The notes beneath the pieces are model-generated. The model did no database searches, had not been told where the DNA came from, and was given only the letters and a program-made list of their open reading frames with translations. The position numbers were made by a program, and so were the translations under genes. A DNA stretch of 64,000 bases. Origin: Owenia fusiformis (taxonomy: Eukaryota; Annelida; Polychaeta; Sabellida; Oweniidae). Below are positions 148-47,656 of the stretch, piece by piece. How positions within the stretch are numbered: position 1 is the first letter of the stretch; each line of letters opens with the position of its first letter. The stretch lies in the NCBI GenBank assembly GCA_903813345.2, contig CAIIXF020000001.1, positions 53,401,885-53,465,884 of the forward strand, in the 5' to 3' direction.

Positions 148-3100
148 AAGCTTGACGAAAACATGGTTTTATCCAGACACAAAAGAGTGGTTGGAGGTAA
201 TCAGATAATTTCAATTTTCATATTTTCGTGATACTTTTAAACTCAATTTTTATTGGTAATCTTTTTGACTGAAATCCTTTTATATCTTTTAGGTTCGGAC
301 GCTGCTGTAGGGAAACACCCATGGGTAGTTAGGATAGACAACGGTGGTAAAACGTGCACAGGAACTCTCATTACACCCTGTCACGTCCTAACGGAATCAA
401 AATGCATAAAGAATGACAATGGAATAAAGTAAATGATAACACTTATGTACTTATTGATTATCAAAAAGATGTGAAGTACACACATATGATATGACTTAGA
501 CTTATACATTTAGTTATGATGCTTTCTTATTTTGTTTTAGAATGTATCTCGGTGAAAATCAAAAAGATGATGCTAATGTCCAGATTGTCACAGAAAAGGT
601 ACCAAGAGTGATCGATAAGGCAAAAAGTGTAACAATTACGATAACTCTTCTCGCATCCTGCGTTGATGTAAACGAATTTGTCGCACCTATAAATGTAGCA
701 AATGAACGAATTGTTGATGACACTCCAGCGACTGTATATGGCTGGGGCGAGACGATTCCACAATCAAATGTGTTACAAAGGGCAAGAGTTGTTTCAAAAA
801 CTGATGAGTGTTTGTCAAGATTTGACCCATCTAAACTTTTTGGGATGTTGTGTGCTTATGAAAATATCAAGAGTATAGGAGACGAAGGTGGACCAATGGT
901 AGTTCCGGGGATTGACGACCAGCCATGTTTGGTAAGACACAAAAATACATTAACTGCATTAATTCATCTGATCCTGCGTCCAATTTATACACTGGAGAGG
1001 TTAAGCTAACGATGTTTTTCACAACGTAACCGTGAACGCAAAGTACAAAAATTAACAAAGGAATGTATCGAGCGCTCATAGTTTAATGCGCGCTTAGTCT
1101 ACTTCAGATACTCTTTCAGCTTCAGAGTTTCGGGTTTAGAACGGGAGATTTTGAAATTTGACGTTGGGTCAACGGGAACCATTTTACTCGTGTCTATTGA
1201 ACACTATGCTGTCAATTTTGATTTCGATGCACAGTTGAATTCTTGCTGAACACGATGATGTATGTCATGCATGATTTAGCGCCAAAAATCTTACGAAACG
1301 AGCTCGTTTAAAATATGTATTAGAAAACCAGCTATAAAACCGCATCAATGACATACTAGAGAGGTTTCGCAAAACGAATTAGCTAAAACGTATCCGCATC
1401 CGTATCTCGTTACGTTTACGGATACGTATTTCGATAATTTTCGTTTCGCAGTTCGTTTTTTGAAGTACGTAATTATAAACGCATCTCAATCCGTATTTAA
1501 TAGTAGTGAAAACTAGGGTCAAATAAAAGGCTTCATCTGCACTAAGATTTCAAAACACCATTGGGAGTGTCAGCTTTCAGAATCACAACTCCAAAAGTAT
1601 TTTTGGTGAGTGCAAAAATACATATTAGCCCTTTCATCCCCAAGGTGTCATTTGTTAATTTCATGACATCAATTTCAAAATGAAGAATATCCTTTAGGCC
1701 AGAAAAGGTTATTTCTAGGTTTACAATAACCAATTCAGTGTCAAATTATACTTTTGGGAATATTTAAGGGTTTGAAAACAGAATAGCTGAATAGTGGTCA
1801 TTAACCTATTACAACCAAACACAACAACAGTACAATAGAACATAACCCAGTGTCAAAATACACAGAACGCAATAGAGCATAACCCAGCACCAAAGCCAGT
1901 ATAGCGCAACCTGACTTAACCACCAAAACACAACCAACTGTCAGATTAACACAATATGTCACAACCCAATAATAAGACAACAAAGACAAACACAACCAAT
2001 TGTTGAATTAACTCAACACAATTGTGCACAATTCAACACTAAACAATAAAAACACAATCAGGCACAACCAATAAAACACAACTAAACTAACAACCATGAA
2101 AACACATCGAACTGTGAAATTATCACCACACAATTTGGCACAACCCAATGGTAAATCAACAAAAGCAAAGACAGCCCATTGTTCAAGAACAGAACACAAT
2201 TTTTCAAAACCCAAAACAAAACAATCAAAACAAAATCAGGCACAAACAAAAAACTCTTTAAAATTGTAATACCGAGATACACAACTAACTTAACCCAATT
2301 GGAGAGAACGCCAATCACAAAACGCAATCAGACACAACAATATACCTCAACCGACTAGCCACAACCAGCTAGCCAACCAACATAACATATTCACAAGAGA
2401 AAACAACCCATAATAAGATTAACATAACACAATGGGACACAACCCGATACTAAATTACCAGACTAACAACCATCAAAAGAGAACCGAGTCTCAAACGTAC
2501 ACAACACAATTCGGCAAAACCTATACCCACATGACACTAACCCACCATTACACAACCAGGCTTAAACAAATACTCAATCGATTTTCTCAACCCATCAAAA
2601 CACAATCAGGCACAACCAATAAACAACAACGAAACGTTGATACCGATTTACTCAACTAAGTTATTCCAACTGGAGACAATCGCACAAAACAATCAGGGAC
2701 AATCCGATATCTACTGAATATGTACTTGAATAACAACCCCCCCCCTTCCCTATCATCACAAGGCTGCTAATGAAGAACACATCATGGACCACTACCCAAG
2801 AGTTAGGAACATCTGGGGCCCCTACCGTGACTCATATGTAAGAGAGAAGATCCGTTACAGGATCTGGATGTCAGGCCTGTCTTTACAAAAATGAAAATAG
2901 GAAATGATACGCCAATATCATCATCCTAGGATCAAAGAAATATACTCTACCTGTTACATAATCACTGACGGTGGTTCCGGGAAGCTTGGGCACTAAGCTT
3001 TAGTCTCCTTGGACCCCCAAACGAGGCCGCTTACTATTTGACATAGATCGCATCGACTTGATGCGTGTTCAAGTCATACCACGGGAAGAAGCTACCTGGC

Positions 3101-6100
3101 TAGACATTTTTTCAAAATCATTCAGTTTTGCATCATACTGAGCACTTTTCGGGAGTTTTAAGCCAAAAAGCTCCCCCTTGCCACAAGCTGGATACGGGCA
3201 AGAGTGATGCGGGGCGCCATCTTTAGACCCAATATCACATTCATTGTCGAGGTCAGGACCAAGCTACTATATTCAAACTAAGCCAAAGTCCCTGCTCTAT
3301 ATGAATTCGGAGCGTGACTTTCTAGGCACAAAATATATGTTCAGGTGGCCTAGCTGCTAACCATGGCCATTGGTTTGATGTCCCTAAGAAATTGACTACG
3401 GTATTACTATTGACCCCAGAAACGATAGACCTTACATCTGCCTATAAGCAAATGTGACTAAAGCTTTATTCGTACATATTGCAGTACAGGCCCCTCGCTT
3501 ATAATCAAATTTATCGGCAGATAAGGCTATTACTTCATCAAAATTAGCAAGATACACATGATAACATATGTGGGTTACTAAAATTATACATTTAGGGAAA
3601 AATTTATCAAGATTTGAAGGACAAAATAGATACGGAGACAACTACGCACAGAAAGTGTTAGTTTACGTACTTTCGGTATTGCTGTTGGTATCACAAACGT
3701 ATTGAGTACACTTTTACTCCATCGATGCGTTACGGATTTTGATACGGGTAGCTAAAACGTTGTGCGAAACATGTACACTGTAATTATTGCAATACCATTC
3801 CATACAGTGTAAAATGAATTGAACATACCATTTGAAAAACTCGATTTATTTCAAACAATAAACAAATTCATTCACCAAATTTTAGTCAAATTATACACAG
3901 CACACTGTGCTTGTTCATATAGTGATACCTTTAGAACTAAAAACAATATAATCGAAGGGTAAAATCGGATACGTAAATGACCAACGTACAGAAGCCTCAT
4001 TTTTCGTGTTTTCCGTACCATTTCACGTATAAATTGAACTGACAACGCATAAATCTGGTAAATACGTTACGGATACGGATACGTGGAGCTAAAAAGCGTT
4101 TTGCGAAACCTCTCTACTATAGAATCATTACACGCTATGTTGTAGTCTAAACAAACACTGGATTTGAACGGCTATTTATATGAGAAAGCTACATGAATTT
4201 GTATATGGTCGAGTGATACGTACAGGTTCAGTTTCGATTATATATGCAAAGCTTAACCTCTCAACTGTCTCAAATGTACACCCTATCTATATTAATAACC
4301 CACAAAAGGAAAATTCTTGCATGCAATTTTAAAAAGTAATGATTCCAAATTGAAACCAAATTTAATTTTGAACTCTTGTTTGATTTTAGTCATTTTCTAG
4401 TCATTTTCCTCATGAATCCGATAATAGAGAGGATAAGTAAACTTGAACGAAAACTTGTAAAGACCCCCTGAAATTGTTCACCATTGTTGTCCACCTCTCA
4501 ATTGGTTCTTTTCCTCATATCTTTATTTTCAATCGGGCAATAAAGGCCAGTGAATTGAAAATAGCCTATAACATGTATAAGAGACCATGATTTTACACAT
4601 TTCGCGTACACGTTCTTCAAACTAGTGCAAACTCCCTAAAAACTGATTTCCTAGCACATGTTGCTTTTAGGTTGGTTTGACACAGAACAATCGGGATCTC
4701 ACTGACACAACCGACCAAACTCCTGTAACCGTATCCACATTTACAGATGTAACAATTGGAAAAATTGTCAAACTGATTGGAACATTTATTGGAGGTAGGA
4801 GTGTATTTCATTTTCCTGCAATTAATGAGAATTGATGATAAGGAAACAAATAAACTTTCACTCATTACATATGATCAATTTCAATTTCAGCTAATCCTTG
4901 TGATTGTGGAAAAGGTTTAACTAATTGTAAACCAGCATTACCAGAATCGCCAACTGATAGTACTAACACTTCACCTACCGACTTAGTCACTGTACCAACG
5001 TCACTTTCTGAGATCACTTCAGAGCCCGAATCGGTCCAAACGACAATTTCTTCTGTAGTCACGGATACGCACCCATGGCTTGCTCGAATAGAAAATGGAA
5101 GGAAGCAGTGTTCTGGAACATTGATTACACCATGTCACATTATAACAAAGAAGACTTGTGTGAAGAAGAACAATGGTTTAACGTAAGTGAATTATACCAG
5201 TCTATGTAGGGATTACCCAATGACATATAACAAATAAGTATTATTTACCCACAGAGATTAGAACAACTTCTTCAAAGCTGGGAGTTATCCTACTAAATGT
5301 TAGTTGAATTCCGGTTTATTAAATATAAGTCGCACCTCCACACTCTCCCATGTATACCGTTCCGTATTAGTGAAATTGTTGACATTAATACGGAATAAAT
5401 CATACCATTTCATGAAAAAATGGTGACCTCGTCCTACGGAAATTGAGATTATGTTTCACAGCAAGTTTGCATGGCGATACTGTATAGCACATGCTCTGGG
5501 GAATTGATTCTACTTTCTATAGACACCAATCACATCTCTGTTGATAGAATAATAAAAAAGCCTTAGGGTCCCAATCTCCTTTGTTTACATTTACCAAAAC
5601 GTGAAAAAATGACAAAAGTTGTCATAACTTTTTAAATCTTAAACTTTTGAAACCGATTTCACTTGCCAGCAACAGATACTTTAGTCGTTGACGCACCGAA
5701 CATGTCAGTTTAGTTCGTAATATCTCCAAATAAACGATTTCAACATTTTAAAAAACTCGATGCTAGTCCACGTGTTAATACGGAATGTTGAATTCGTTTA
5801 TTTGGAGATATTACGAACCAAACTGACATGTTCGGTTCGTCAACGACTAAAGTATCTGTCGCTGGCAAGTGAAATCGGTTTCAAAAGTTTAAGATTTAAA
5901 AAGTTATGACAACTTTTGTCATTTTTTCACGTTTTTGTAAATGTAAACAAAGGAGGTTGGGACCCTAAGGCTTTTTTATTACTCTATCGACAGAGATGTG
6001 ATTGGTGTCTATAGAAAGTAGAATCAATTCCCCAGAGCATGTGCTATACAGTATCGCCATGCGAACTTGCTGTGAAACATAATCTCAATTTCCGTAGGAC

Positions 6101-9100
6101 AAGGTCACCATTTTTCATGAAATGGTATGATTTATTCCGTATTAATGTCAACAATTTCACTAATACGGAATGGTATACATGTGAGAGTGTCCATATAATT
6201 CGGGTTCAAAACGTTCGTAATTCATTATTTAGTTTACAATGTATATATTTCATGTGTGTATATTTTGCCAGGTCTGAATCCTAAAGCATCTGCACATCAT
6301 ATATTTAAAAGTTGAATAAAACTTTTGATTCATTCAATACGTGCATCGTATGTTAATGCCACTGTTCAAAATATTGGATGCGGGTCTTTTTTGTTTCAAA
6401 CACTCATTGAAGATGATACGTGTTTGAAAACATTATTAATTTGAGTCAGATTAAGCGTATTTTTATTTCAGAGTATATTTAGGAGAAGAAAGTCCAAATG
6501 ATGTTAACGTTCAGTCAATCGGAGAACTCGATCCCAGAAGGACTGCAAATAACGACGGTCTCTCAATTATAGTGCTTCAACTTGAGAAATGTGTCGAAAT
6601 CAATGAGTTTGTTGCGCCTATAAATGTTGCAGATTTGCGAATAGTTGATGATTCAGCGGCCTATGCTCATGGTTGGGACAAATCGGTTCCTTCTAAGACA
6701 CCCATTATTACCAAAACTAATGACTGCATTGCTCGATTCGGGGCACAGACATTCAGTGGATTGTTATGTGCATATGAAACACTGCCTTCAACGTTTCAAC
6801 TCGGCGGTCCTTTGGTAATCACTGGAGATGATGACAAGCCTTGCATGGTAAGCAGTCCTACCTACAGGATGTGGCCAAAAATCCATATTTCCATATTTTT
6901 GCTAAAGATACGGTTTTCTTGTGACATCAATTTGGTTGCAGTAACTGAAATCACTGTAAAACATATTACCTTGAAACCAGGAGTTTGTATTCACACCCTC
7001 ATTGAATTTTAACCTCAATTCCATTTAAATACCGCTATGGATTAATAATTATAAGTAATTCCATTTTGAGATTGATTAGAATCGAATCCTGCATACTCTG
7101 CGAAAATATACTATTGAAGTCAATGCATCATTTTCTAGGGATTTTTGACCAACAATATGGTTCAATTAATATCAGACTAAGACCATCTACTCTAGGAATC
7201 ATCGTCCTTCGGACCATGGTTCCCGGGGTATATGGCCATACGGACCTAAATTCTTATGGAGCTTTTACTTTTACACCGGCTGACTCATATATATTCGAAC
7301 AACAAAACAAAAACACATATAGTTTTCATAACTTCCATGGTAACAAGTGTGTAGGCAATTCTCAATAACAAATTATTTAGGCTTAATAGATTGAGCGCTG
7401 ATTGTGACATGACAATGATAACACGTTCATAAACATATTTACAAATACTAGTGTTTTGTAATATTTTTTTTATGTCAATCACTTGCATCTTTATAGGTTG
7501 GTCAAAATCACAAAAATCTCGTCGTCACAGACCTGTCATCGGGATCTACTGTAACTGTTTCCACGTTTATTGATCTACTTGATTCAGGAGTCACTCCCGA
7601 ACTGCTATCAGACTTCGTACAAGGTAATAATGTAGCACAACGGGAACCGCACGTAATATTTTACTGTGTGACTAGTAGGGTCTGTCCCTTGTATTGTTGT
7701 GTCCAGGTCCAGCTCATCTAAAAATATAAAAATAAAAAAGTAATTAACACTCTAAATAAATCCAATACATTTGTGATTTGATATCAGCATTTCAAATATT
7801 TCGTCCTATACTACTGCAGCCATGATTATCTTGCCAAATTATTCCATTTTAGCTAATCCTTGCTCAGCGGAATGCAGGCAAGGTATTACTCCATGTCGGA
7901 AACCTTCAGTTTCACAAGTCGTTACCACCACATCCACTTCTACAAGTCCAGTTGATGCCACGGACCAGGTCCCGACTACCCAACCTGACGCTACAACATC
8001 TACCCAACCTGATACCAGTGAGTCTCCATCCACTGATCCTTCTGCCACTACACCAACAGAATCTCCTACCCAACCTGATACCAGTGAGTCTCCATCCACT
8101 GATCCTTCTGCTACGACACCAACAGAATCTCCTACACAACCTGCTACCAGTGAGAAGTCCACATCCACAACAACAGATCCTACGTTGGCACATCCTTGGC
8201 TTGTCAGGATACAAAACGGCAATAGCAAGAAGTGTTCTGGTACTTTAGTTACTCCTTGCCATGTGATGACATCATTTACATGCGTAAGGAAAAATAATGG
8301 AATCAAGTAAGAAAATTATTTATATTATTTATTTAAATGTCATGCTATGAAAAGCAATAATTGACTCTTACGAGATTTTCCATAATGACGTCTCGGGCGC
8401 TTAAGAAAAGGTATAGAGTGAAACCTGTATATTCGAACACCGTACTCTCAATGCAAACGTTTTTTTCGGTCTCATTTTTAATCTTTCATTGATTTCCATG
8501 TTAGAAATAACTTGAAATGAAAACACCTGCCAATCCTAAGACGTTTGGCTGGTCCTAATGGCGTTCGAATTTGACGGTTTTTACTGTTATAGACGTTTGA
8601 CCAGACACTGACCCACTTTGGGTAGTTTTAGGGGCAACCAACATATTACTGTTCTTAAACCGTAGTTTTTAACGAAAAGCTGCATGCATTGATGCAATTA
8701 AAGATTGTAATAATTTGCATTTATAAAGGGTTTACATTGGCGAACATTCAGTTGGGGATGATGTAGAAGTTATTGATGCAGATAAACCCCGTCTTACGAA
8801 TAAAGCTCTAGGTGTATCAATATTCAACCTTGCTACGTGTGTTGATACAAATGCTCCTAATGTTGATGTCATAAGTGTTATTGACTCCACAATCCCAGAT
8901 GGATGGAACGCTAGATGGTTTGGATGGGGAACTGAACATATCACAGTTGGTTCACAAAGTCAGGTGGTACAGTCTGCAACTTGTCAGAGCAATGCTGGTA
9001 TAGCATTACAAACTGGACAAATATGTGCTGCACCGTCGACAACTTTTAATGATAACGGCGGTGCGCTTGTTATAACAGCAGAAGGTCGTGCCTGTCAAGT

Positions 9101-12100
9101 AAGCCTTATATTTGTACAAGAAGTAAGAGATGGTCGACCTTTGAATTGTTGTCATATATGCATTGTTAATTAAATTGCACCAGCTTCGACATTTCAGTGG
9201 CTGATAATTGTTTGTCTATAGGTTGGTGTTTCTCAGACGAATATCGTTGATGCAAACAACAGCACAAATATCGTAACACCATACAGTGATGTGTCAGAAA
9301 GACGTGTAATAGTAGACATGCTTACTACGTTTATAAACGGTAGTACAATTTTTAAAATTTTACTAAAAACTTCCAGCATACTGATAATTTTATTTTAAAT
9401 GTCATAGTAATGGTAACTATCTGCTTTACTTCATATATAATTTTGTGTAGTGCTTTAAGGATTTTATACTTTAATTTTAGAACTCTATGACTAATTGGGA
9501 AGATGTCTATCTTCTCAACCCGTTTCTGTGAAAGTTTAATATAATAATATTATGATTGCTTAAACCAATGTTTGACTTTTCGATGCTGTGTATGTTGCAT
9601 TAGATAATCCTTGCTCGCAATGTGGAGCTCAAGAAGTGAGGCAATGTACACTGCCTACCACTACTCCTACTACTATTCCACCATCAACAACTATTGCCTT
9701 AACCACCACAACCGAGAGTGTTGTAACCACATCTACAACATCAAAGGATGATACCACAATCACAGACAGTACCATAAGCCAACAGACAACTAAAGCAACT
9801 ACTTCTCCATCAACAGAACCTCCAACAACAACTACTACTCTACCATCAACCACTACAACCATAGATCCTGCATTAAGTCATCCATGGCTTGTTAGAATAG
9901 AGAATGGTAAAAAGAAATGCTCTGGCACTTTGGTAACACCTTGTCATGTAATGACATTAACATCCTGTGTCAAACGAGATAATGGAATAAAGTAAGTCAA
10001 TTGATGAATATATATGCCATTCACAGGTATTTATCACAAAGTTATATGACATATGAGGGAACAGAATACAGTGAAGCCATCTTAATTTTTCCAACAGATG
10101 AATGGTAAGTAAACAATCGTAACAATCGAAACATGTCTAGTGTGTAAATAATTGGCATCATAATGAGTAATAAAGTTCTTGCCCTTGATTAAGCCTCATT
10201 AACCTTACTATCACACCAAACTACATCTCACTACGTTCTCGAAAACGGGCTTAAACTTTGTGCGAATGGAATGAATGTAGCTGCAGCTTTCTACGGGCTT
10301 TTTACAAGCATAAACTAGACTTTTGTATGAACTTCATGGACCTGCTCAGACGGGAAGTTGATTTAGAATTTTGAATCATTTCAAAATTCGATGGCGCCCA
10401 TACAGTTCTGTAATTAGATCTTGTGGCAACGAACTTCAAACGAGATGACCTACTAAACTAGGAACGTAATTGCCGTACTTCGACCCTACTAGGGAACCGT
10501 TAACGACATTGTGCAACCGGATAACAATTGCAGTGCGTGTACACACCGACATGGTATAACCTGAACGAACTGCGAGTGAGATGGACGTATTGAAGACTTT
10601 ATGAACGAAGTAGCTAATTATGTTAGATTTATGAATTAGAATTATGCTAGATTTGCCCCATTTTAATACGATTTTTTTTGTACGACTGGAAAGAATGGTC
10701 GAGAACTAGTTTGGTGTGATTGTGGGGGTAAGAACCCCATGCTTAAATTACTTGAATTCTTTAACTTTTTACTCATACGTTTCAGGGTTTTTGCCGGTGA
10801 GCATATAAAAGGTGATACGGCTCAAAGTTTAGCTGCAAGTGCCGTTAAGCCAAGAGAACTAATAAAAAATCTTGGTGTGACTGTATTTAAGCTTGAATCA
10901 TGTTTCGACACAACTGCTCCAGATGTCGATGTCATAAGTGTGATCAATACAACAATTCCTGATGCATGGAGTGTTGATTGGTTTGGATGGGATGCCTTGC
11001 ACGATAAAGTTGAAATTCAAGGACAAGTTGTACAGACTGAAAAATGTCAGAGTGAACCTGGTATAACAATACAAACTGGAGAAATTTGTGCATCACCAAA
11101 AGCATTAGATAATACAAATGGAGCTCTTGTTTTGCCTCTTTCTGCTACATTTGATGCATGCCAGGTATGTGAATAGTGAATACCAGTAAATAGTAAAAGT
11201 AGATCGTGATATTGGTCCTTGAATGTTGGGGAGGGGGAATTAGTCTCTGTTTATTTTTACGTTGCATGATTTAGAATAGTTGGGTTTTTCTCATGACAAG
11301 TGTACTCTTAGATTTTATATTTTCTTCTGTAACCATTTTCGGAATTATTTTCCCGTTGACACTTACGCATACATATTTATTCAAATATGAAACAAAGGTA
11401 TATCCTTGAATTCTCATAAAATATCTAAGTAATTTTACCTGAACATTATTACAAGCATATAATGGTATGCTACTATTTTTGACTAATTTTTGAAGTGATC
11501 TCGCTGACATACTAGTTACGTTTTTGATGCTATCGTTACTGTTACATAGACAATGGTATCATGAGAAATTATGGCCTTCCATTAGTTTCTTGAGATTTCT
11601 AGCTGAAGGCGATATATGTGACGAGTATCAGAATGATTAGTAGATTTATTTACTTTTTGTCTATATTTTTTGCCAATGGATGCATCCTCTGCATATCTTA
11701 CCGTACACTGCCTACCTAAATCAAGCTTCACATGATTCTTGATCAGTATTTTTTCATCATTTTCACAGATGATTGATCAGTAACAACACTGTCAGTCAAT
11801 TTTGTAGACGTTGATGTGAATGACTCAGAACTAAAATAGTTGAACCAAGTTGACTTGGTTATATTTAGATTTTGAATAGAATGATACATATATCACTTGC
11901 TTGTGAAAGGTTTCAGGTAAAAATCAAGAAAGGATTACAGATACATTTTACAAAAATTTATTGATATACCTTCATACATGAATTTACTTTTTTAGGTAGG
12001 CGTTTCTCTGGCAAATCTAGTCGATTCAAACAATGTTACAAATATTGTAACAGCATATCTTGATGTTTCCCAAAGTGTTATTTTGGTCGACATGTTGACT

Positions 12101-15100
12101 ACGTTCATCAATGGTAAGATTTTTTATATCTTTGCATGGAATAATTTAAAAAAACTGTTGGTGTGCAAAAAAGCTTTTTTAAATGGCTAGAAAAGTATCA
12201 TGACATTAAGGTATTGACATAAAAATTAATTACTGAAACTTAAGGATAGGCATATTTTACCATTCAAATAGTTAAGCTAATACTGACTTCAATTTTCGTG
12301 AGATCTTTGAATTTCAATGGTAAATTGTTCATGTGTCTGGGATTTACTATTTTTCCTACCAATGTCCAATGTCTAATACAGATTTTTATCACTATCGTCA
12401 CTTTGGTATTATTGTTATACTGTATTAATTATTTCACGATCACATGGAGACGAGGACCGAACTGGTCAATAGCGAGGTCCAGCAATGGTAGCTCTCTTTC
12501 AGAGGACTGAGGGCTCTTTCAGCCCCAGTTGATTACATATTCCAGCAGGATATCGATCCAGGCCATAGAGTGCAAAAGTCACTTTGGAATATCTGGAGAA
12601 GAATACCCCTTGGTTCATTAGTCCTGATGAATGGCCGCCCAATACACCACTTATCAAAGATTGTAGCAGATTTAGTGAACATTATAAATGTGCTATTTAT
12701 GATCACATAAAATCATAGAACATCACATTTTCTAGAAAAACAGTAAATCTTGGACACGTGAACAAATTAGCAATAATATTCAAACATGTGACTAAAAACT
12801 GAGTATTTGAATGGTAAAATATGCCTATCCTTAAGTTTCTGTAAATAATTTTTTATGTCAATACCATTATGTTATGTTACTTTTCTAGCCGTCTAAAAAG
12901 TTGCAATTTTTTTTGGCACACCCTGTATACAGTGGTTGTTATGTCACCACCAAAAGTGGTGACATATTGTTATGGTCTCCGTTTTTTTGCGACGGCGGTT
13001 GGCGTCCGGCGGTTGGTGGTTGGCGTCCGGCGGTTGGCGTCTGGCGGTTGGCGTCTGTAACAATTTCTTACAACTTCCTATAACTTAACAAATACTGTTT
13101 AGACTGACTTCAATTTTTTTCTAAATCATCTACATGTTCTCAGAAGTTCAAATCTGACTTTAGATTTGACATTTGACCTTCAATGACCTTCTCAAGGTCA
13201 AAAAGGTCTTTTTTCAACTTGCTTCACATTGACTAAATTTTTTTTCAAAATCATCTACATGTTCTCAGAAATTCAAATCTGACTTTAGATTTGACATTTG
13301 ACCTTCAAATCTGACTTTAGATTTGACATTTGACCTTCAATGACCTTCTCAAGGTCAAAAAAGGTCAAAAAGGTCTGTTTTCAACTTGCATCAAATTGAC
13401 TAAATTTTTTTTTCAAAATCATCTACATGTTCTCAGAAATTCAAATCTGACTTAAGATTTGACATTTGACCTTCGATGACCTTCTCAAGGTCAAAAAAGG
13501 TCAAAAAGGTCTGTTTTAAACTTGCTTCAAATTGACTAAAATTTTTTTTCAAAATCATCTACGTGTTCTCAGAAATTCAAATCTGACTTTAGATTTGACT
13601 TAAGATTTGACATTTGACCTTCAATGACCTTCTCAAAGTCAAAAAAGGTCAAAAAGGTCTTTTTTCAACTTGCTTCAAATTGACTAAATTTTTTTTTCAA
13701 AATCACCTACATGTTCTCAGAAATTCAAATCTGACTTTAATTTTGACATTTGACCTTCAATGACCTTCTCAAGGTCAAAAAAGGTCAAAAAGGTCTGTTT
13801 TCAACTTGCTTCAAATTGACTAAATTTTTTTTTCAAAATCATCTACGTGTTATCAGAAATTCAAATCTGACTTTAGATTTGACTTAAGATTTGACATTTG
13901 ACCTTCAATGACCTTCTCAAAGTCAAAAAAGGTCAAAAAGGTCTTTTTTCAACTTGCTTCAAATTGACAAAATTTTTTTTTCAAAATCATCTGCATGTTC
14001 TCAGAAATTCAAATCTGACTTAAGATTTGACATTTGACCTTCAATGACCTTCTCAATGTCAAAAAAGGTCAAAAAGGTATTTTTTCATCTTGCTTCAAAT
14101 TGACTAAATTTTTTTTCAAAATCATCTCCATGTTCTCAGAAATTCAAATATGACTTTAGATTTGACATTTGACCTTCAATGACCTTCTCAAGGTAAAAAA
14201 AGGTCAAAAAGGTCTTTTTTCAACTTGCTTCAAATTGACTAATTTCTTTTTTCAAAATCAGCTACATGTTCTCAGAAATTCAAATCTGACTTTAGATTTG
14301 ACATTTGACCTTAAATGACCTTCTCAAGGTCAAAAAAGGTAAAAAAGGTCTGTTTTCAACTTGCTTCAAATTGACTAAAAAAAATTTTCAAAATCATCTA
14401 CGTGTTCTCAGAAATTCAAATCTGACTTTAGATTTGACTTAAGATTTGACATTTGACCTTCAATGACCTTCTCAATGTCAAAAAAGGTCAAAAAGATCTT
14501 TTTTCAACTTGCTTCAAATTGACTAAATTTTTTTTTCAAAATCATCTACATGTTCTCAGAAATTCAAATCTGACTTTAGATTTGACATTTGACCTTCAAT
14601 GACCTTCTCAATGTCAAAAAAGGTCAAAAAGGTATTTTTTCATCTTGCTTCAAATTGACTAAATTTTTTTTCAATATCATCTACATGTTCTCAAAAATTC
14701 AAATATGACTTTAGATTTGACATTTGACCTTCAATGACCTTCTCAAGGTCAAAAAAGGTCAAAAAGGTCTTTTTTCAACTTGCTTCAAATTGACTAATTT
14801 TTTTTTTCAAAATCATCTACATGTTCTCAGAAATTCAAATCTGACTTTAGATTTGACATTTGACCTTTAATGACCTTCTCAAGGTCAAAAAAGGTCAAAA
14901 AGGTCTGTTTTCAACTTGCTTCTAATTGACCAATTTTTTTTTTCAAAATCATCTACATCTTTTCAGAAGTTCAAATTTGACTTTACAAGTTCTCAGAAAT
15001 TCAAATCTGACTTAAGTTTGAACTCATAATATTGTGAGCAACTAGGTGGTGACATTTTGTCATGTTAATGCCTTGTTTTGCATGTGATCATAAACGGACA

Positions 15101-18100
15101 AAACAACAATTAAGAAAATGAATGAGCATTAAACGACAAATTACACAAATAGTATACCTGGCTTTATCATTGCATTAGATAACCCATGTAGCGACTGTGG
15201 CAGTCCGTCGGTTAAAACATGTGCTCCTCCACCTCCCACCACTTCTCCCCCTTCGACAACTACGCTACCAACACCCGCGACAATCACAACCGAACAAATA
15301 GCCATAACAACAGATACAACAGAACCCTTACAACAAACAACTACTACTACTCTGCCTCCAACCACCTCCACTATAGACCCTACATTAGCTCATCCATGGC
15401 TAGTAAGAATAGAAAATGCTGGGAAGAAATGTTCGGGTACTTTGGTAACACGGTGCCATGTAATGACATCATCCAGTTGTGTAAATCGTGACAAAGGAAT
15501 AAAGTAAGTCGTGACTTTTAAAGTACGCAAACTTGAATCTTTCAAAAACGAGACATGGCTTGTAGACTATATTGTATTCTCAAATGCAACTAACGCCTGT
15601 CGGCTACCAGATTTACCTGCTATTTCATGGGCAACTCATTTAAATATGAATAGTACTTGCCGCTATTCCATTCATATTTAAATGAATAAGTCATGAACTA
15701 TTAGATTAATCCGGTAGCCGACAGGGCGTTAGTTGCATTCGCGAATACAAGGATAGTTTCCTTCACTCACCATCCAGTATCATAACTGGTTGCAATAACA
15801 CATCAATATCGATAACTTTTGAAATGCAGGTAGTAAATATATTTTTATCTGGAATTATACCGATTTTAATATATAGTATCTCAGCTCTCCGTAATAGAAA
15901 ATACCAAACTAACGTTGAGATATCTTTTTCATTGTACGGCTTTCCATTTATCTAAAGAGTCTATGCTGGGGAACACAAAGTCGGCGATTTGGCTCAATTT
16001 CTACGTTCAAGTCCTGCTAACCCTAGGGAACACATCGGAGAAAAATCACTTGGTGTAGCTGTATTTAAACTAGAAGACTGTTTCAACATAACTGAAGATG
16101 TAAATGTCATAAGTGTTATTGACACAACTCTTCCTGATGGCCTGAGCGGCGATTGGTTTGGATGGGGATCATCACACGATACAGTTGGAACATTAACTCA
16201 AGTCGTACAAACCGCCGTGTGTAATAAGAATGACTCTGGGATTATACTTAACAGCGGAGAGATTTGTGCGTCACCACAGACGGATTTTGATGATACTGGA
16301 GGCGCCCTTGTTATATCATCAGCCGGAGAAGCATGTCAGGTAAAAGTGCCTGGAATAAAATCATGTTTGTTGTTTTAATGTTCGAATGTAATGCTAAAGG
16401 TGGTTTGCAGCATATTTGTGAATGTGTTTAGAGAATATCAACCCATGGTCCAGTGATGGCTGGGCCACGTTTGTTAAAGGACAACTGAAATAGGTTTTCC
16501 CAACTTGCAGCTAAAGAAATGCGGTTTTCTTCATTGTAACGTGTCAAAATACATTTTTAAAAATTCTATTCATTCCTTTAGGTCAAAAATACCATTTCAT
16601 ATCTGTTTTCAATAAATTTTTAGTGACGTTATGATTTTTACATTTTTAGGTAGGCGTATCTCAACTAAACATCGTTGACCAAAGTGACTCGTCGGCTGTT
16701 ACACCATACAGTGATGTTTCTCAGTCAGGAATATTAGTGGATATGCTAACTACATTTATATCTGGTACATTACACTTAACTTGTGACATATACTATGGCA
16801 ATGAAAACTTGTATTAAATCTTGTAAATTCATTTTGAATAACACGAAGTCTAGTCTCGATTAAAAATATCTTTGATAACAAATGTTATGCATGCGGCATT
16901 ATGTAGGATGTCACTTTTTATTCAGACCATCCATGTGATACATGTGGCAGTGCTAGTGTTAGGATATGTACTTTACCTGCCCCACCAACTACTCCACCAC
17001 CACCATCTACAACGCCTTCTCCTACAACAACCCCTGAGCCAACGACAACAACTACGACACCAAGACCAGTAACAACACTACCACCTGGACTGCGTCATCC
17101 TTGGGTTGTCCGTATTGAAAATGCCAACAAGATTTGCTCAGGGGTCATCATTTCAAGTTGTCACGTATTAGCACCAAGTATATGTGTTAGGAAAAACCAG
17201 GGAATTATGTAAGTTGTCTCCAATTTATTCTCTTGTTCTCACCTCCGATGCTACAATACTTCACAGTGATATCAAAAGAAAAATATTGAACTGATGAAGA
17301 TACAACAAGTATAACAACGTCTAATAAATAAAATATGCCCTGAGGTGTAATGTTTTAATTAAGCAACAGTAACCAAAGTGATTAAGGTGTTTATCTTGTC
17401 ATTTTCAATTTCACATTGTCCTGCACAATCTCCAATTTTGCCAATCTAGCACATTTTGACGTATTTTATAAAAGAAGTGTTAGTTTAACTAACTGTTTTT
17501 ATATCCAGGGTCTATGCTGGGCAACATAGAAAATCGGACGAGGCTCAAATTCGGCAAGAATTCAACCCAGATAAAAGAGAAATCAAGGCAATAAAAGCAT
17601 TAAGTTTGACAGCATTCAAACTTGATAATTGTTTGGATATGTCATTTAAAGATGTAGATGTGATAAATATTGCTAGTATTGCGGTATCTGATAACACTAC
17701 TGTTGACTGGTGGGGATGGGGAGTATCTGATACGATAGGTAATACCTATGTTCGAATTGTTACTCATATTAGAAATCAATGATGAATATTAAACATCTCA
17801 GTAAGCCAATGGTGTGTGTGAAAATGATTGTTCTGATGCTCTTGTGTGGTTTCGGATCATGATAATGGATGTTTGATGGTGGGGATGGACAGCTTCCAAA
17901 TGTTCCTATGTGTATTTTAACATATTTGGGATGGTTGTGTATTTAAATGTTACTATTTCTTACTTTGTTTTTAATCTTCTATTCTCTCCAATTTATGGCA
18001 ACATGTGCTTACACAATGATAAGAATTCCAATAGATGCGCTTGCCATGATATCTTGAAGCTTTCTAACAATAAAAAACAGAAAAGGTCATAATGAATGCA

Positions 18101-21100
18101 ACTTTTGGTGTCACTTTGATATCGGCATCTTTGGCTTTTGTTTTATTGTTTATTTTTTGTTTTACAATAGATGTAATTTTGTAATGTGCATTTACTTCAT
18201 CATTTACGTTTAGGACACTTACAGATGACTGTTCGAAGTGAAGAATGTATGGAAGTGTTTAGTGGCACTTGGGACCCACTTCAGCAATGCGGGACACCAC
18301 CGACAGACAATGAGGATGTTGGAGGCTCCATTGTAAAATATGATGATTACGGTGATCCATGTTTGGTAAGCTCTATAGGATAGCGTCCGATTGCTTTCCG
18401 ATATGCTTTCATTATACAATTTTAGACCTCGCTTAGTGTTAACTGGCAAAATTGTATACCTTGAAAGTACTGTTGACCCAGAAGACGAAATACAATATAT
18501 CTACCGGAGGATATACCCTGTATCCAAAACCTCCCATTAAATAACCCTCATTTATACCATGGTCAGAGCAATATTAGGTACGTTAAATCAGGGGATAAAT
18601 CACACATTTGGGGAAGGGATGATATTGGGATTAGAGGGATAATATCATTTTTCTTATCTTATTCTTATCTTATCTCATTCAACAGAGGATTTTAGGTAGA
18701 TATTACTCTTGACCATGGTATAACGTCGTCGTTATTCACCTGCTAAGATGATATGAGGAATATCCCTCGGATGATATCAATATTTCACTCTGTCACTGCG
18801 TTCCCTCCTGAAATATTGATATCATCCTTGTGATATTCACCATATCAAATCCCTCCTGGTGAATAAGTTCTTTTTATCTCATTGTTGCAAGGATATATAT
18901 CGAATATCACGTGAAGATATATTTGCTATGTGGATCAAGATATCATATTTTAGCCCAAAAATCCCCAAACCATGGGATACCACTTCTTAAAAAGTGATAT
19001 TTGATGGTTTCAAAAGTGATATTCGATGGTTTGATTTTTTATTTTTCTAAACGATTTTCAATTTTTCTCAAAAGTAGCGGTTAACATTATCTAGTAGCGC
19101 ATTTTGATCAATTTTTAACTAACCTATCAAAGTTGAGTACTAATATTTCAACTGGGATATTAATTAGAGGTTATGTCACTATCATGGCCCGAGGTCTTAG
19201 TGATATATGGCCCGACCTTGGGAGGGACATTGATCTCTGAGAACCGAGGGCACATGTGTCACGGTAGTGACATAAACGATTTATAACATACCTTAATGAT
19301 GTAGACTGGTCAGAGAGTACCGTTTTCTTATAGAATTGACAAACAAATGGTTTGAAAATGATTGAAATGAGTTTAGAAATATTGCTCGCGCAGTTTTATC
19401 TTCGATTGATTGGTTATGACGTCAGCGCCTTGACCAATCAGAAAGTAAGCGGGCGCGGGCTTTTCAAAACTTATATTGGCCCGCTGTCTTGTGTACACTT
19501 TGCACTATACATCATCATAGGTATGTTATTGAACCAGTTTGAAGCAGCAATTGAGCATTTAAAAATCATTATATCAAAATGAACATTTAGTACATCATTA
19601 TATCAAATAACCATTTATCACATCATTATACCAATATAATAGTTCATGGTATGAAATCTCTAGGACGTAAAGGAGCTGGTTACGTAGCTCACGACATTTG
19701 ACCTAACATTAACATACCTACATATGTTCTTCCGGCTTTTAGGCTGAATTATGCCTGCCATTAACAGCAAATGACCAAAAAATAAAATCCCAATTTTTCA
19801 CAATTTGGAGTACACAATGCAACAGAGAATATTACAAAATGATTTTAAATATATGATTTAGGTTTCTAAGCTATAAGTTTGAGGTTATTTTTCTTATCAA
19901 TACCAAAAAATTATGTAATCAGGGTATCGACGTTTTGTATTGTTTCCCAGGTATTAATAAGATAAATGCTACAAATGAATCACTTTTACATTAGAATGAC
20001 AAATGCTTAAATTATGCTAGTTTTTCACAAAATTTTATATTATGATAATATATTTTTTGTTCGTATGCTTAAAATAACGGTCTGTGTATTATAAAAAAGT
20101 TCGAATCATAATATTTACGTTTTTTGACCCCTTGTGATGAAAGACATTTTTCGATCCGAAAGCCGGAAGTTTTTTTTCAGCAAAGTATTTTAAAAGAATC
20201 AAGACAAGTGCACCTCCATACAGTTGGACGGCACATTGCCTTAACCCATCAGCTTTATGACGTGCACTTCCGCGATGGACTATATCTTTACAACGGGAAT
20301 TTCAATTTTTTGTCAGTGTAGACATAAAAAGTTGCGGTCCTCTTACTCGCGCAGTTTTTAATATTTTCATTTGAAACTTGCAGGAACGGTGCTTTGAATC
20401 TAGCTCTCTACTCTTTGAAAACGTCATGTGTAATCAATACAGTTGACCTATTTATTTTTTGTCGTGAAAATATTATTTTTTTAGTTTATTTTTATTTTAC
20501 AACTTTTTGGGAAAAAATGTAACAAATTTTTATTTCTTGTCATATTTATCCGATATTTTGTCATCATGAAATTCGAGATTCTTTTTAATGATGGTGCAAA
20601 TTTCATAACAATTGATGAATTTTTATTATCAGTGTTATGTTTTCCAAAAAGGGTGTACCACTGTGCATGTTTCTTTAATTGACGGCACATTTGCTTTTAA
20701 TTGGGCGAACGTACAGGTCCCGGCGCAATAAGCTTTATTTGATTTAATACACTCAAAAATAAAGTTTGCTATCAAATCGGAATGTTCATAAAACATAAAC
20801 CTTGCCTTCGTTTTCCCAATTCTAAAAGCAGACCAAATAAACTATGATAATCGTTTGACTCTCGAGACTACAGAACTTGAACTTGAACATACTAAAATCG
20901 AAGTTGCCTATAGTTACGCTTGTAAAGTTAATTACATGTTTAACGGCCTGCTGAGTGAATGTATCTAATCAAATTTGTGACATACCCATAAGATCGTAGA
21001 TCACAATTCTAAGTTTAAATGTAATTTGGATTCGTAAGAAGTAATTCTATTTTAAACTTACCTTTGCTGTCTGAAAAAGATCAATATTCATAGACGAGGA

Positions 21101-24100
21101 TGTTGAAACCTATATTTCCTTTGAATGACCTGCATTTGTATTACGAAATGATCCTGTGGAGAAAAGTTGATGAATTCCAAACAGCTAGTTCTAGCAAATC
21201 TACTAGTATAAGCTTACTTTCTTTCTTATTTCAATGTTGAAAATATCTATTCAAATGTTTCATTTTTAAAATGATCTTGGCTTCCCTTAACTTAGATGTG
21301 TGACTTATGAAGAATGCTTTTTACCACATCAAACTTAAGACGTGAACTTGACAATTACTCGTGTTATAACGCGATTTTCTTTCATTTTCTACAAAAATGG
21401 TATGTTTTCGAAAGGTCACTTATGTTAATCTATCACCTTGGTATGATTGAAAATGAAAGAACTGAACCAAGTATTGTCGACTTGTTTGAATTATAAGATT
21501 TATTTTGATTGATTTAATCTCTTCTTGAATTTTAAAACTTTTGTCCGAATTACATCTGCTATGGAATTAAAGTTCAAATATACCTCAGAATTGCTTATTG
21601 AATTAACCTAGCAATTAATTTGAAAATAATTCTTTTCATAGGTTATATATCATAGATCATAGATATGTAAAAAATAAAAATGTGTTTTGAAAGATGAATT
21701 GATAACAAACGTTTTTGCACACGTGCCATTTCCACTTTCAGCCCACTTAAAGCACGAAATCCCGTATGACGTAATGTAACGAAAATGCTCAGATAATTGA
21801 TATTTTTTATTTTAATTCAACTCACATTGACCGTTCAGTTATGAACGTTTTTAAAGTTCTCATGTTAAAATAAATAAATATGTGGAAAGGCAATGGTTTA
21901 AAGCTTATGAAAATGTCAAAATCATAATTCAGTTTAAAAAAAAAGATATTGACATGCATTCACGCACATTTGACATTATCTCTTTTTGTGCGATTCAAAC
22001 ATAAAAATCTCATTACAGTTGTACATAAGAACCAATCTTAGCCATGCCTTTCTAATAAAGGAACTAAATTTGAATCGAAAAATAATTCTGTGTAAAGATG
22101 ATTCCCCATAGATATAATAAATGTCAAAAATGTCAAAAAAAATTATCAAAAATTAAATACTCACACGCTTTTAAGCACACCTTTTTCAGTTTTGCTCATA
22201 TAATTTACCTTGAAAACCAAGGAGACCGAACTCAATTTCTAAATACAACCTTGATACGTGTACCAGGTCTATAATTGCATTTTCTCATGGAAGGAATCAA
22301 GCAAAAATTATAAAAATAATTCTGCGTAGAGGTGATGCCTCACAAATAATATTGATGTAAAAAATTAATTCATTTCTTCAAAATTAAATACTGACACGCA
22401 TTTACGCACACATGACCTTTTCCAGTTTTGCACAGTATTTCATTGACCTTGAAAACCAATGAGACTGGACGCAATTGCCAAATACTTCGTTGATACGCGT
22501 GCCAGGTCTATAATTGCATTTTCTCATGGAAGGAATCAAGCAAAAATTATAAAAATAATTTTATGTTAAGGTGATGCTTCACAAATAATATTAATGTCAA
22601 AAAATGAATTCATTTCTTCAAAATTAAATACTGACACGCATTTACGCACACATGACCTTTTCCAGTTTTTCTTATTTCATCTACCTTGAAAATCAATGAG
22701 ACTGGATGCAATTGCCAAATACTTCTTTGATACGCGTGCCAGGTCTATAATTGCATTTTCTCATGGAAGGAATCAAGCAAAAATTATAAAAATAATTCTA
22801 TGTCAAGGTGATGCTTCACAAATAATATTTATGTCAAAAAATTAATTCATTTCTTCAAAATTAAATACTGACACGCATTTACGCACACATGACCTTTTCC
22901 AGTTTTGCTTATTTCATTTACCTTGAAAACCAATATGAGACTGGACGAAATTGCCAGATACTTCTTTGATACGCGTGCCAGGTCTATAATTGCATTTTCT
23001 CATGGAAGGAATCAAGCAAAAATTATAAAAATAATTCTATGTTAAGGTGATGCTTCACAAATAATATTTATGTCAAAAAATGAATTAATTTCTTCAAAAT
23101 TAAATACTGACACGCATTTACGCACACGTGACCTTTTTCAGTTTGCTTATTTCATTTACCTTGAAAACCAATATGAGACTGGACGAAATTGCCAAATACT
23201 TCTTTGATACGCGTGCCAGGTCTAGAATTGCATTTTCTCATGGAAGGAATCAAGCAAAAATTATGAAAATAATTCTATGTTAAGGTGATGCTTCACAAAT
23301 AATATTAATGTCAAAACTTTAATTCATTTCTTCAAATCCAAATACTGACACGCTTTTGCGCACACGTGACCTTTTCTTCTTTTGCTCATTTTATTTATCC
23401 TCAAAATCAGTAGGCCTAAATACATTGTCCGATACTTCTTTAATACGTGTCAGGTCTAAAATTGCAGTTTATCATGAAAGAAATCGAACAATTGTCATAA
23501 AATAATTATGTGTAAAGGTGACTGATGTTCTTCAGATTATATAAACATCAAAATTGTAATTCATTTATTGAAGGTTAAATATCCACATGCTTTTAGGCAC
23601 ACATAACCTTTTCCCTTTCGTTCATTTTATCTATCTTTAAAATCAGTGAGCCTGAACTCATTGCTAAATACTTTTTGATACGAGTCAGCTCCAGGTCTAA
23701 AATTGCATTTCATCATGGAGCAAATCGAGCAATCATTATGAAAATAATTCTGTGTAAAGGTGATGTTCCAAAGACAATATATATGTCAATTTGATAATTC
23801 AGTTACTCAAAATGAAATATCCACATGATTTTACGCACACATGATAATTTCCTGAATGACGCTACTTTTTGGATTCAACCATGCATATAACGTCGTAAAA
23901 TACACATTTCTACCGAAATTATGCCCAGCCGTTTTCGTAGAAAATGTAACAAATGAAGGCATTTTATCGGAACTGATTGATATTTGGTACTTATAGAATA
24001 TCGTATTTACTTTAACTTTTAAGCGATTCAGACATTTAAAAAAATTATGTTTAATCAATGTTAATTTCGCACGAATATAGGGTACAAAATGAGTGAAAGT

Positions 24101-27100
24101 CCCACGTGTTTGATTGCATTTTACTCCCATTTATGTGCATTTTTCTAACATTAAAACGAGATAGTTGGAAAGAAGAGATCAGTAGAATTCTATCTGTCAC
24201 TTTCATTTTCAAATGTTTAAATGTTTCCCGTTTCATTGGACCTCATAAAGATGGTAGCCAACGGACCAGAAACAAGTAGTGCGATGACGTCATATATCGC
24301 TACACCACTTTGATATTAAGTTTGGTAAACAACAATGGGTTTTTTCAATGTGCCGTCCTACTGATAAATATTGCTTCAAATGTTGCTGCGCTATAGTGTG
24401 CTACGGATCCTTCATATTAGGAAGTCATACCATGGACTATAACGGGAACCTGGTATGAATGAACCAGAGTAATGGGTTTACTGCATAACACATATTATTG
24501 GGTTATTGTATAGTCCATGGTATGAAATTCCTTGAACGCCTAATTAAGGAGCTGGTAACACAATATAGTGCAGGATATTACACATGCCCAGTATTGCTCT
24601 TTTATTACACATTACTATACCTAACACCTAGAAATGCATAAGATACTTTGTTTGTCCAATTGTATTGTTTAGTATATTTTTGAAAGTACCTTATTAACAT
24701 CTAACTTTCAACCGATAAACCATTAATAAGGAACAGACAAATAAAAACAAATACATAATCATTACTAATAAGCCAAATTGGTTGCTCATGAACACCAAAT
24801 GCAAGGTATAGTAGAGTGATTATAGCCGTTCAATATTCTTCGGCCTTTTGTGCCGAATAATGCATGTCATTAGCAGGGGCAAAAACATTAGAAAAACGAA
24901 ATCACCCTTTTTACAATTTGGATTACATACTGCTACTGAAAATTATATGAAATAAATGTTGAGTGTATTTTTTAAGTTTCTCAACTATGATTTGCGTAAT
25001 CAGCTCATCAACATTTTGAATTGTTTCTTCAATATTGGTGATGTAAATGGTATCGAAGAATAGTTTTATATAAGAATGAAATATGAAAAATGGGTCTTAA
25101 TACGTTTTGAGATATGGACTGTCATCATCAGGGATCAGCTATCAATGAAGGAGGACGTATTGCTCTTCATTGACTTACTGTGGCTTCGCCTAAAATTATT
25201 TTGCCCCTAGTTAGATATTGCTCGGTTGATTATAAAACAACCATTAAGACCTGGTCCAATTCACGAAGCTTTGAGAAAAACGCTTTTGATTTTCACTAAA
25301 AATGTGATGATAACCAGCAGTTATGTCAGAAAATGTGATAATATGCAGCAACGTCGAAAGAGAAATGTAAGGCTTTTGATTGCATACGTCTCTTATAAAC
25401 TATTAGACATGCCCTCTGAATATATAAAGGTTCTGATAACATTGGTCATTGTTTTATTAAACACAGGCAATTATTTATTGTTTGACTCATGGCGATGATA
25501 GGGATTAATTCTTAAAATAAAACTTTGAAATAGTAAAAACTTAAAATATTTGAAATTATGAAGTTTTTAAATAATACACACAATTTTATCAGTTCTACTT
25601 GACCAGTATTTAAAGAAATAAACAAAATATATACAATTTAATTTTGATATATAGTGATTATCCAATTTATTGAAAATATGCTTACATTAACGTGTCGAGT
25701 CTTATAAAATGTGTAAGAATTCAAATGAAAAAATTTACGTTTTTTGACCCCTTGTAATGAGAGGCATATTTCGATTCAAAAGTCCGTTTTTAAATTTTAA
25801 GTTTTTTTAGCGAACGGTTTTTTAAAAGAATCAAGACATATGGACCTACTTAAATAATGGTTCAAATGTTGCTGCACTATATTGTGTAACTGATATTCTT
25901 CATATTCCGGAGTCATGCCATGAATTGGTAAAGCGCCGTTTAAGGGACGGGGTAAAGCCGAAGCGGGTATTCTGGTCACGTTTGACATCACTCCAAATAT
26001 AAAAGTATAGGTTATAGAATTGAGATTGACAAACTATTTACTTCAATTATCACTTTTCATATTGAAAATATATAACATGCATGTAAACATGCAGAAACAT
26101 TATTCAGTTTTGTACTCTTGTTCTGTATTTCTTTGCCCTTACATAGTATTTGTAAATTTTTCCTTTCCTTTATACAGCTTCACCTATAGTATAGCTCCAA
26201 TTCAGCCACAACATGTTTGTATTCTTTTTTACTCCTATTATTTTCCTTTTTCTGGGACCCCAAAGACAGAGGCAGAAGATAGTACATGTAAATGCAGATA
26301 CAATTTCATTTACATTTTAGATTTACATCGAGGGATACCAATAATGACACTGGGGATGGATTCCTCATGTCTGACCTGTACTTTTATGAATTAATGACAA
26401 TAAAATCTGTTTATAAAAAGAACATTGACATACGTATTAATTATTTGGATAGGTCGGAACAGCAGCAGCAAACAGAGCCCAGTTGGACCCAGTGACATCT
26501 GAAGCGTTGTTTACAGTGACTCCATTCACTGACGTGTCAATCCCTGATGTGATCAATGACCTTAGACTTTACGTAGCAAGTACGATATTCTATAGTCTAG
26601 CTATAACCCCTTGCACAACAAGCGAGAAGGTGTTATTCAAGTAGAGGGGGTCACAACATCATGACAAAATGGCCTTCTATTTGCTTCACACTAGTATCAT
26701 ATTTCTGATTGAAGACAGAAAGATGTGATGAGTATCAGAATGGGGTCACAAAGGCTTGTAGCTAGACTAGATATATTTTACTCAATGTTGGTGCATATTC
26801 AGGGTGATCAATCACATTGGTCAATACTGTTATGCAGCAATTTTAGATCATCTATAATTTCAACATCTCTGATCATATACTGCAATTTTGAGCATCTTAT
26901 CGTTTGCAATTTTGAACATGTGTCTTAAAACAAGAAATTGACACTGAATTCTAATCAAAAATGCTAAAGGTGAATGAGATGAATGAGCGTTATTACAATT
27001 TTTGCGCAATGCCATGAAAATGAAATTCCAAACACCCGGATTTTAAATATTACATGCATATAATCATAGCCTAAATATTTTCAAATTGAATATGTGTACT

Positions 27101-40937: not shown

Positions 40938-40943
40938 AATAAA
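40938..40943 (+). terminator. Polyadenylation signal of the giant gene
   Basis: AATAAA in an A-rich stretch 122 nt after the stop. It is the first such hexamer downstream of TAA. Confidence 0.6.
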
Positions 40944-46732: not shown

Positions 46733-47656
46733 TAGGTTTGAAATGATGATGTTGAACTGATGTTAACACGATTCCCACGATTTCAAATTTGACTTTGCGC
46801 ATGCGCAGCACTGAGAGACCAAGTGCTCGTGATTGTTCAATTGATCACATCTTGCAATTTGATTGGAAATGATGCGGGAGATGATGTAATGGGGAATCCC
46901 CGAATACGATAGAATATGAAAGAATTGTGGGAGCTACTCACTTCTTTTGATAAAAAGGTTTATATTCATCATGTCAAGTCTTAAACGGTGAACACCGCCT
47001 CTAATGCGTTGGATTGTCTGGGGCCAACACGATCCTCAGTGACCCAGAGGGTGCATGAATGCACCTAGTCAAGTGTAATCTTAGTATGTTGAAAGTTACA
47101 CCAACTAATTATCAGCTCTACCACATTATTAAATTGGTTTGCTCTAATTTTGGATGGTTGGGCAAAGGTTAATCAGTGTTCAAAGCTAGAAAATGTCCAT
47201 CAAAATATATTATAAGTATATAATAACTTTTTTTAGAATTATAAATCACTTTCTACATTAAATAAGAAGTACACATATTTTAAAGCATATTTGACTGTCA
47301 TTAAAATGTGTCCCTTGCAGTTTAAGGTGTTAGGAGGTTCATTTTGATTGAAATATTAAGCGAATAAATTTGGAGATACCAGTACCTCCTGTTTATTGTC
47401 AGGCACCTGATGAAAATACTGTCAACACTTAAGTGAAATAAATTACCTGGAATTTTTTGAAATTCGAACTTTTGGAATTTCATGGCTATTATTTTTTGCG
47501 AAAAGTGCAAAATATAGTAGCACAAAAAAATTACTGGGAGTACAGTAAGCGCTACGCTCTAAAGACAATTTTACAGATCTTCGGCCCCACCCCCACTGCT
47601 TGTGGCCATCCATCTTAGCATGGGCCATAAATCAATTCAAATCAACTGTGCTGACA
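46733..47656. other. Intergenic, nothing recognised
   Basis: AT-rich unique-looking sequence without credible exons or element ends. Confidence 0.4.

Follow-up and report, generated by a model that had tools for sequence, protein, structure and literature searches.

Six tandem trypsin-like domains without a catalytic triad in what looks like a single secreted, stalked protein of the annelid Owenia fusiformis

We describe a gene in a 64,000-nucleotide stretch of the genome of the marine, tube-dwelling annelid Owenia fusiformis (contig CAIIXF020000001.1, hereafter C1; the whole stretch, C1:53401885-53465884, is referred to as the window). The gene looks as if it encodes one secreted modular protein, in which a signal peptide and a propeptide are followed by six dead chymotrypsin-fold domains, Ser/Thr-rich stalks, sushi and EGF domains, and a C-terminal CBM14 domain; secretion, glycosylation, and location are predicted from the sequence. 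A first-pass annotation of the window had pointed out the six units and knew of no described counterpart. As far as the searches made extend, a six-unit dead gene is indeed not described in the literature covered, but the kind itself is known from the polyserases, from serine protease homologues (SPHs), and from a beetle protein carrying a pair of dead domains (PMC11172050, in excerpt).

Residue positions are given in chymotrypsin numbering and were assigned by reading alignments. From unit 1 to unit 6, position 57 is occupied by K, T, T, S, S, and I, position 102 by T, S, G, G, G, and S, and position 195 by E, L, N, N, T, and V, with unit 4 reading T at 195 under an alternative gap placement. 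The losses of His and Ser claimed in the first-pass annotation therefore hold, and Asp102 is gone as well; not one residue of the triad His57/Asp102/Ser195 is retained in any of the six units. These are S1 domains with a substituted triad, which places them among SPHs and outside the active S1 proteases. The chain also carries the two or more S1 domains expected of a polyserase, as six are present in the model and units 1 and 2 lie in one NCBI record, but it lacks the active domain that at least one unit provides in human polyserase-2. A search with the Pfam profile PF00089, which had been proposed as a check, placed all six complete units above the cut-off of 20.6 bits (25.7-76.2 bits; E 4.4e-21, 4.3e-10, 7.6e-10, 9.2e-7, 1.2e-13, and 1.2e-5 for units 1-6), and thus the trypsin-family match is not due to chance.

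Cys42, Cys58, Cys168, and Cys182 are retained in all six units, as are Cys50, Cys111, and a Cys near position 208. No Cys is found at aligned position 191, and position 189 is I, L, or a gap, so the S1 pocket region has been rebuilt. The fold landmarks previously listed as kept are mostly present, with deviations at CTGTL in unit 1 and CSGVI in unit 6. A zymogen site (HKR/VVGG) is found only in unit 1, together with Asp194, and units 2-6 have a linker in its place. Structure prediction, the other check proposed, gave a chymotrypsin-fold model with the double beta-barrel for unit 1. This model was obtained from a 44-row alignment of four proteins and 40 of 79 bacterial trypsin stretches, the latter extracted from 80 of at least 120 pattern-scan loci. 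An earlier structure model, built from the four-row alignment A2, had a pLDDT of 40 and was discarded.

The gene model was built by placing splice sites by hand and then checking their phases. It comprises 35 exons on the forward strand and encodes 2,476 residues without an internal stop; all 34 introns are GT-AG with fitting phases, the stop codon lies at 40816, and an AATAAA signal is located at 40938. The gene starts upstream of the window at -1127, with 5' exons at -1127..-1114 and -103..-22. The model is identical to NCBI record P0001 along all 514 residues of that record, which is marked "partial" and ends inside unit 2; for these reasons, the gene seems to be cut short in the public annotation. 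The trypsin part, whose ends at 148 and 26579 had been proposed beforehand and coincide with exact splice edges of the model, consists of 20 exons encoding 1,645 residues without a stop. Each unit follows one plan, namely a linker plus exon A entered in phase 1, exon B entered in phase 2, and exon C entered in phase 0 and left in phase 1. The exceptions are unit 1, with its activation site on an exon of its own, and unit 6, with one extra intron.

Unit 1 begins with the exon for the propeptide end and activation site (148..196, identical to P0001), followed by exon A with Lys at 57 and Cys50 (293..428, placed by the gene model and alignment), exon B with Thr at 102 and Glu at 195 (541..931), and exon C (4671..4794). 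In units 2-5, the A exon starts with an NPC-Cys motif and a Ser/Thr/Pro linker. Unit 2 is encoded at 4891..5182 (linker of 59 residues, 47% S+T+P), 6472..6847 (Ser at 102, Leu at 195), and 7497..7623, within which P0001 ends. Unit 3 lies at 7853..8306 (112 residues, 61%), 8729..9098 (Gly at 102, Asn at 195), and 9222..9339, unit 4 at 9604..9991 (91 residues, 60%), 10786..11164 (Gly at 102, Asn or Thr at 195), and 11996..12113, and unit 5 at 15179..15503 (70 residues, 61%), 15958..16339 (Gly at 102, Thr at 195), and 16650..16764. The A exon of unit 6 has the same build (16926..17208; 56 residues, 66%) and is followed by a split B exon (B1 at 17509..17738 with Ser at 102; B2 at 18214..18365 with Val at 195), an 8.1-kb intron within the unit, and exon C (26453..26579). 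Linkers with 47-66% S+T+P are of mucin-type composition, and O-glycosylation is predicted for them. A 66-bp repeat lies in the coding sequence of the stalk that precedes unit 3 (8000-8154; 2.3 copies, 95% matches), so the length of this stalk may vary between animals.

A sixth NPC linker exon (27106..27247) connects unit 6 to the sushi/EGF/CBM14 part and holds the first portion of a degenerate sushi-like domain, the remainder of which (27796..27929; no Pfam match) is 44% identical over 34 residues to an exon at a second Owenia locus, C1:6.2 Mb. There follow a Cys-rich exon without a Pfam match (29161..29319), sushi 2 (29780..29965; Pfam 1e-8), EGF 1 (30135..30248; 3.7e-6), and EGF 2 (30427..30537; 2.5e-8). 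An EGF-like exon with an Asn/Thr-rich insertion and many N-glycosylation sequons (30734..31327) gave weak EGF-type matches below the cut-off. It precedes EGF 4 (31651..31770; 4.3e-6), EGF 5 (32125..32238; 3.6e-8), EGF 6 (36276..36389; 1e-8), sushi 3 (39271..39471; 4.5e-7), a fourth sushi-like exon recognised by its Cys pattern and without a Pfam match (39966..40160), and the CBM14 domain with the stop codon (40602..40816; 8e-7 over 40 residues). The CBM14 match (PF01607) scores 29.5 bits against a cut-off of 22.1, chitin binding itself being predicted. The succession of mucin linkers, EGF, sushi, and CBM14 domains that had been read from the letters is thus borne out.

Units 3-5 are 60-62% identical to one another, units 1 and 2 are 45% identical, and the other pairs reach 30-37%. 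By the NG86 method, the ratio of nonsynonymous to synonymous divergence (dN/dS) is 0.186, 0.180, and 0.204 among units 3-5 and 0.334 between units 1 and 2, with a range of 0.18-0.39 over the 11 of 15 unit pairs in which dS is defined. No similarity between matching introns was found at E 1e-5, and the two matches obtained both concerned one non-matching intron pair. The copies look old, since dS is near saturation and the introns are dissimilar, and the domains look kept by selection, since dN/dS is well below 1. These ratios, the unit 1 model, and a two-unit paralogous locus with the same exon order agree with a fold that outlasted catalysis; the first-pass interpretation as a whole is supported in part.

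We searched 498 Mb of the Owenia genome in 525 contigs; the published assembly is given as 505.8 Mb with 12 chromosome-scale scaffolds (PMC9977687, in excerpt). A whole-genome search with unit 5 returned 19 matches, 13 of them in the six-unit gene and six at four other places. At C1:6.2 Mb, on the minus strand, two units are joined by an NPC linker and both are dead, with W and K at position 57 and Y and D at position 195, as read from the alignment. The second of these units has exon B split as in unit 6; the first lacks GWG and Cys168, and hence the family landmarks are not universal. Downstream, a sushi-like exon, a Cys-rich frame, a sushi exon, two EGF exons, and a third EGF-like frame follow in the order of the six-unit gene. 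The sushi and two EGF exons matched profiles from that gene at E 5.7e-12, 7.4e-15, and 2.6e-16, while visual comparison served to match the Cys-rich frame and the third EGF-like one, the locus being read as exons and frames. From this repeated order there is good reason to assign the trypsin and sushi/EGF parts to one gene.

Two further loci each show one unit with His57, Asp102, GDSGGP, Cys50, and Cys111, namely C10:20.5 Mb (His57 on exon A) and C12:19.1 Mb (L165, C12:19100001-19102000), and their intact triad suggests that both may be active. Within about 1 kb of the C12 unit, an NPC-Cys motif is followed by an open frame of at least 452 residues (38% Ser/Thr/Pro) that reaches the end of the sequence examined. 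The fourth place, C12:24.9 Mb, is a weak match (E 0.009) to a full-length trypsin frame. Cys50 and Cys111 are common to all subfamily paralogs, the same odd C-terminus recurs wherever that end could be read (in every unit but the second one at C1:6.2 Mb), and the NPC motif is present at both C1:6.2 Mb and C12. Cys50 was absent from all 30 A-exon motifs from 28 trypsin loci, which were chosen from among the best trypsin matches and are not a census. The genome has at least 161 trypsin-profile matches, some of them clustered at C1:2.59-2.62 Mb, C8:19.37-19.43 Mb, and C11:20.77 Mb, and some trypsin copies on C11 and C6 carry A-exon motifs with an altered His.

A tree was built from ten subfamily rows, four other Owenia trypsins, and three bacterial trypsins, thereby sampling part of the trypsins of the genome; the last exon was missing from one paralog unit and the first from the C10 row. 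All ten subfamily rows fall into a single clade (100/100), within which the eight dead units of both loci group together (96/93), next to the two paralogs that keep the triad (94/90). The first C1:6.2 Mb unit groups with units 1 and 2 (91/90) and the second with units 3-6 (97/95), the pairing of this second paralog unit with unit 6 being weak (80/77). Because the eight dead units form one clade beside intact paralogs, a single loss is the simpler account; the triad probably disappeared in one event that preceded the duplications, and the first-pass statement that the fold persisted through five duplications while every active site was lost should be revised. The simplest reading would be one active-site loss, a two-headed ancestor, and then growth to six heads. 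A fuller history, which we regard as speculative and rather unlikely, would lead from a mucin-tailed active protease to an all-dead, chitin-anchored string by loss in the two-headed ancestor and internal duplication from two to six heads, with the product regulating or capturing its own active relatives or foreign proteases.

Dead proteases are common, but it is seldom possible to test how they arose from an active ancestor. In the Owenia genome, members of one subfamily with common cysteines occur in three forms: as relatives that keep the triad, as a locus with two dead heads, and as a gene with six; the two dead forms also agree in exon order. The coexistence of these members makes the transition from an enzyme to a likely binding protein traceable and testable, including which surface was retained, whether extra heads add avidity, and whether dead heads regulate intact relatives.

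We infer a binding or structural role for the protein. The signal peptide, Ser/Thr-rich stalks, EGF, sushi, and CBM14 domains point, by domain type, to a secreted matrix or mucus protein. The measured chitin case named in the literature passage covered is that of Riftia. The reading we favor, to which we give about an even chance, is that of a secreted multivalent scaffold, tethered within an extracellular layer that contains chitin or mucus, with the dead heads as binders. The setting would be the tube lining, the cuticle, or a gut extracellular layer; the CBM14 end would hold the matrix, and the glycosylated stalks would space the heads. It is possible that the heads bind proteases, inhibitors, or matrix partners via surfaces retained from the active ancestor, and that HKR/VVGG cleavage still switches the shape of unit 1.

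Several points weigh against this scaffold. Locating the protein by a chitin anchor is a guess from a single 40-residue CBM14 match. Units 3-6 and the tail depend on the hand-built model and on the matching order of exons and frames read at C1:6.2 Mb, as the NCBI record ends in unit 2. Fold modelling covered units 1 and 2, and the second half of unit 2 was modelled poorly. Even the unit 1 model is weak at about residues 231-270 (block means 49-62) and leans to the trypsin fold because trypsins are present in its alignment. Finally, dS is at least 1.4, near saturation, and is undefined in four of the 15 pairs.

The main rival, possible in our view at clearly less than even chances, is a decoy or dominant-negative regulator, in which the dead heads would tune the activity of the C10 and C12 paralogs by competing for their inhibitors, substrates, or activating enzymes. 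In keeping with this, intact-triad paralogs of the same subfamily in the genome share Cys50, Cys111, and the odd C-terminus, the C12 paralog is likewise trailed by an NPC motif and a Ser/Thr-rich frame, and dead polyserase domains have been suggested to act in such a dominant-negative way (PMC11172050, in excerpt). However, the S1 pocket region is rebuilt, and canonical inhibitors may therefore not bind. Less probable still is a cofactor of an immune or clotting cascade, similar to the insect clip-domain SPHs and switched by HKR/VVGG cleavage in unit 1. Sushi and EGF modules occur in such cascade systems, unit 1 keeps its zymogen site with Asp194, and dead homologues are described as cofactors in insects in the literature passages covered. 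However, the 45 residues before VVGG contain no Cys, and hence there is no clip domain; moreover, units 2-6 have no activation site, and no annelid case was present among the literature matches listed. We consider it very improbable that the gene is a decaying pseudogene or an assembly artefact, or that its exons belong to two or more genes: although catalytic residues are absent, the annotation ends in unit 2, and an 8.1-kb intron lies within unit 6, 2,476 codons run without an internal stop, 34 of 34 introns are GT-AG with fitting phases, dN/dS is well below 1, and the exon order is repeated at the diverged paralogous locus.

Among known systems, human polyserases 1-3 resemble the Owenia protein in that a single chain, secreted or membrane-bound, contains several domains of the chymotrypsin family (PMC1435904, in excerpt, as for the following statements on polyserases). 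Two of the three domains of polyserase-2 are dead, but its first domain is active, whereas units 1-6 are all dead, and polyserase-3 domains lack an activation motif, as do units 2-6. These chains have two or three domains, not six, and mucin stalks, EGF, and CBM14 go unmentioned in the excerpt. Of the seven Tenebrio molitor polypeptidases, which have two to three units and sushi as the most frequent module, pSerPH608 is the closest parallel, with tandem dead domains in one secreted chain (PMC11172050, in excerpt); the group differs in its unit number and in having regulatory regions upstream of each unit, and six secreted members have an activation site before every unit. The excerpts of PMC10036332 and PMC1761132 add nothing on multi-unit proteins. 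No six-unit or annelid example was found among the literature matches listed, subscription papers being outside the scope. Within Owenia, the relatives have two dead units (C1:6.2 Mb) or an intact triad with one unit seen (C10 and C12). The inactivated protease paralogue S-D1 of the scabies mite is a single domain. It also (PDB 3h7t) belongs to a lineage separate from that of Owenia.

The Cys50-Cys111 pair presumably forms a disulfide in the factor XII/HGF activator group. In a PDB search with the N-terminal half of unit 1, both of these proteins ranked high; factor XII has a Cys at position 50 in the alignment (LIAPCWVLTAAHC), like the Owenia units, and HGF activator ranks next. Both are active enzymes, unlike units 1-6, and the Cys50 likeness is likely convergent. 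Homologue searches covered a database of 5.8 billion proteins, in which only candidates sharing most words were scored. Units 1-2 gave four matches, only the Owenia record being close, and units 3-6 gave none, annotated fragments shorter than about 630 residues lying outside the scope. Unit 1 with the signal peptide matched none of 396 candidates, and a prokaryote genome scan with P0004 found no relative.

Around the gene, the 100 kb upstream (500 bases of which are N) yielded no further trypsin unit, and no new EGF or sushi exon was found below E 0.2 in the window plus these 100 kb. The window yielded no Rfam match at the gathering threshold and no tRNA genes, and ten further open frames (eight at 43-64 kb, two within the gene span but on its minus strand) had no Pfam match. 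Tandem arrays occupy introns at 13304-14985 (136-bp unit), 22149-23844 (239 bp), and 28006-28294 (19 bp), and another lies downstream of the gene at 47655-48141 (162 bp). In the 3.7-kb intron of unit 1, the stretches at about 1020-1260 and 4190-4300 are near-identical to pieces beside the C1:6.22 Mb locus (L166) and probably represent a mobile repeat.

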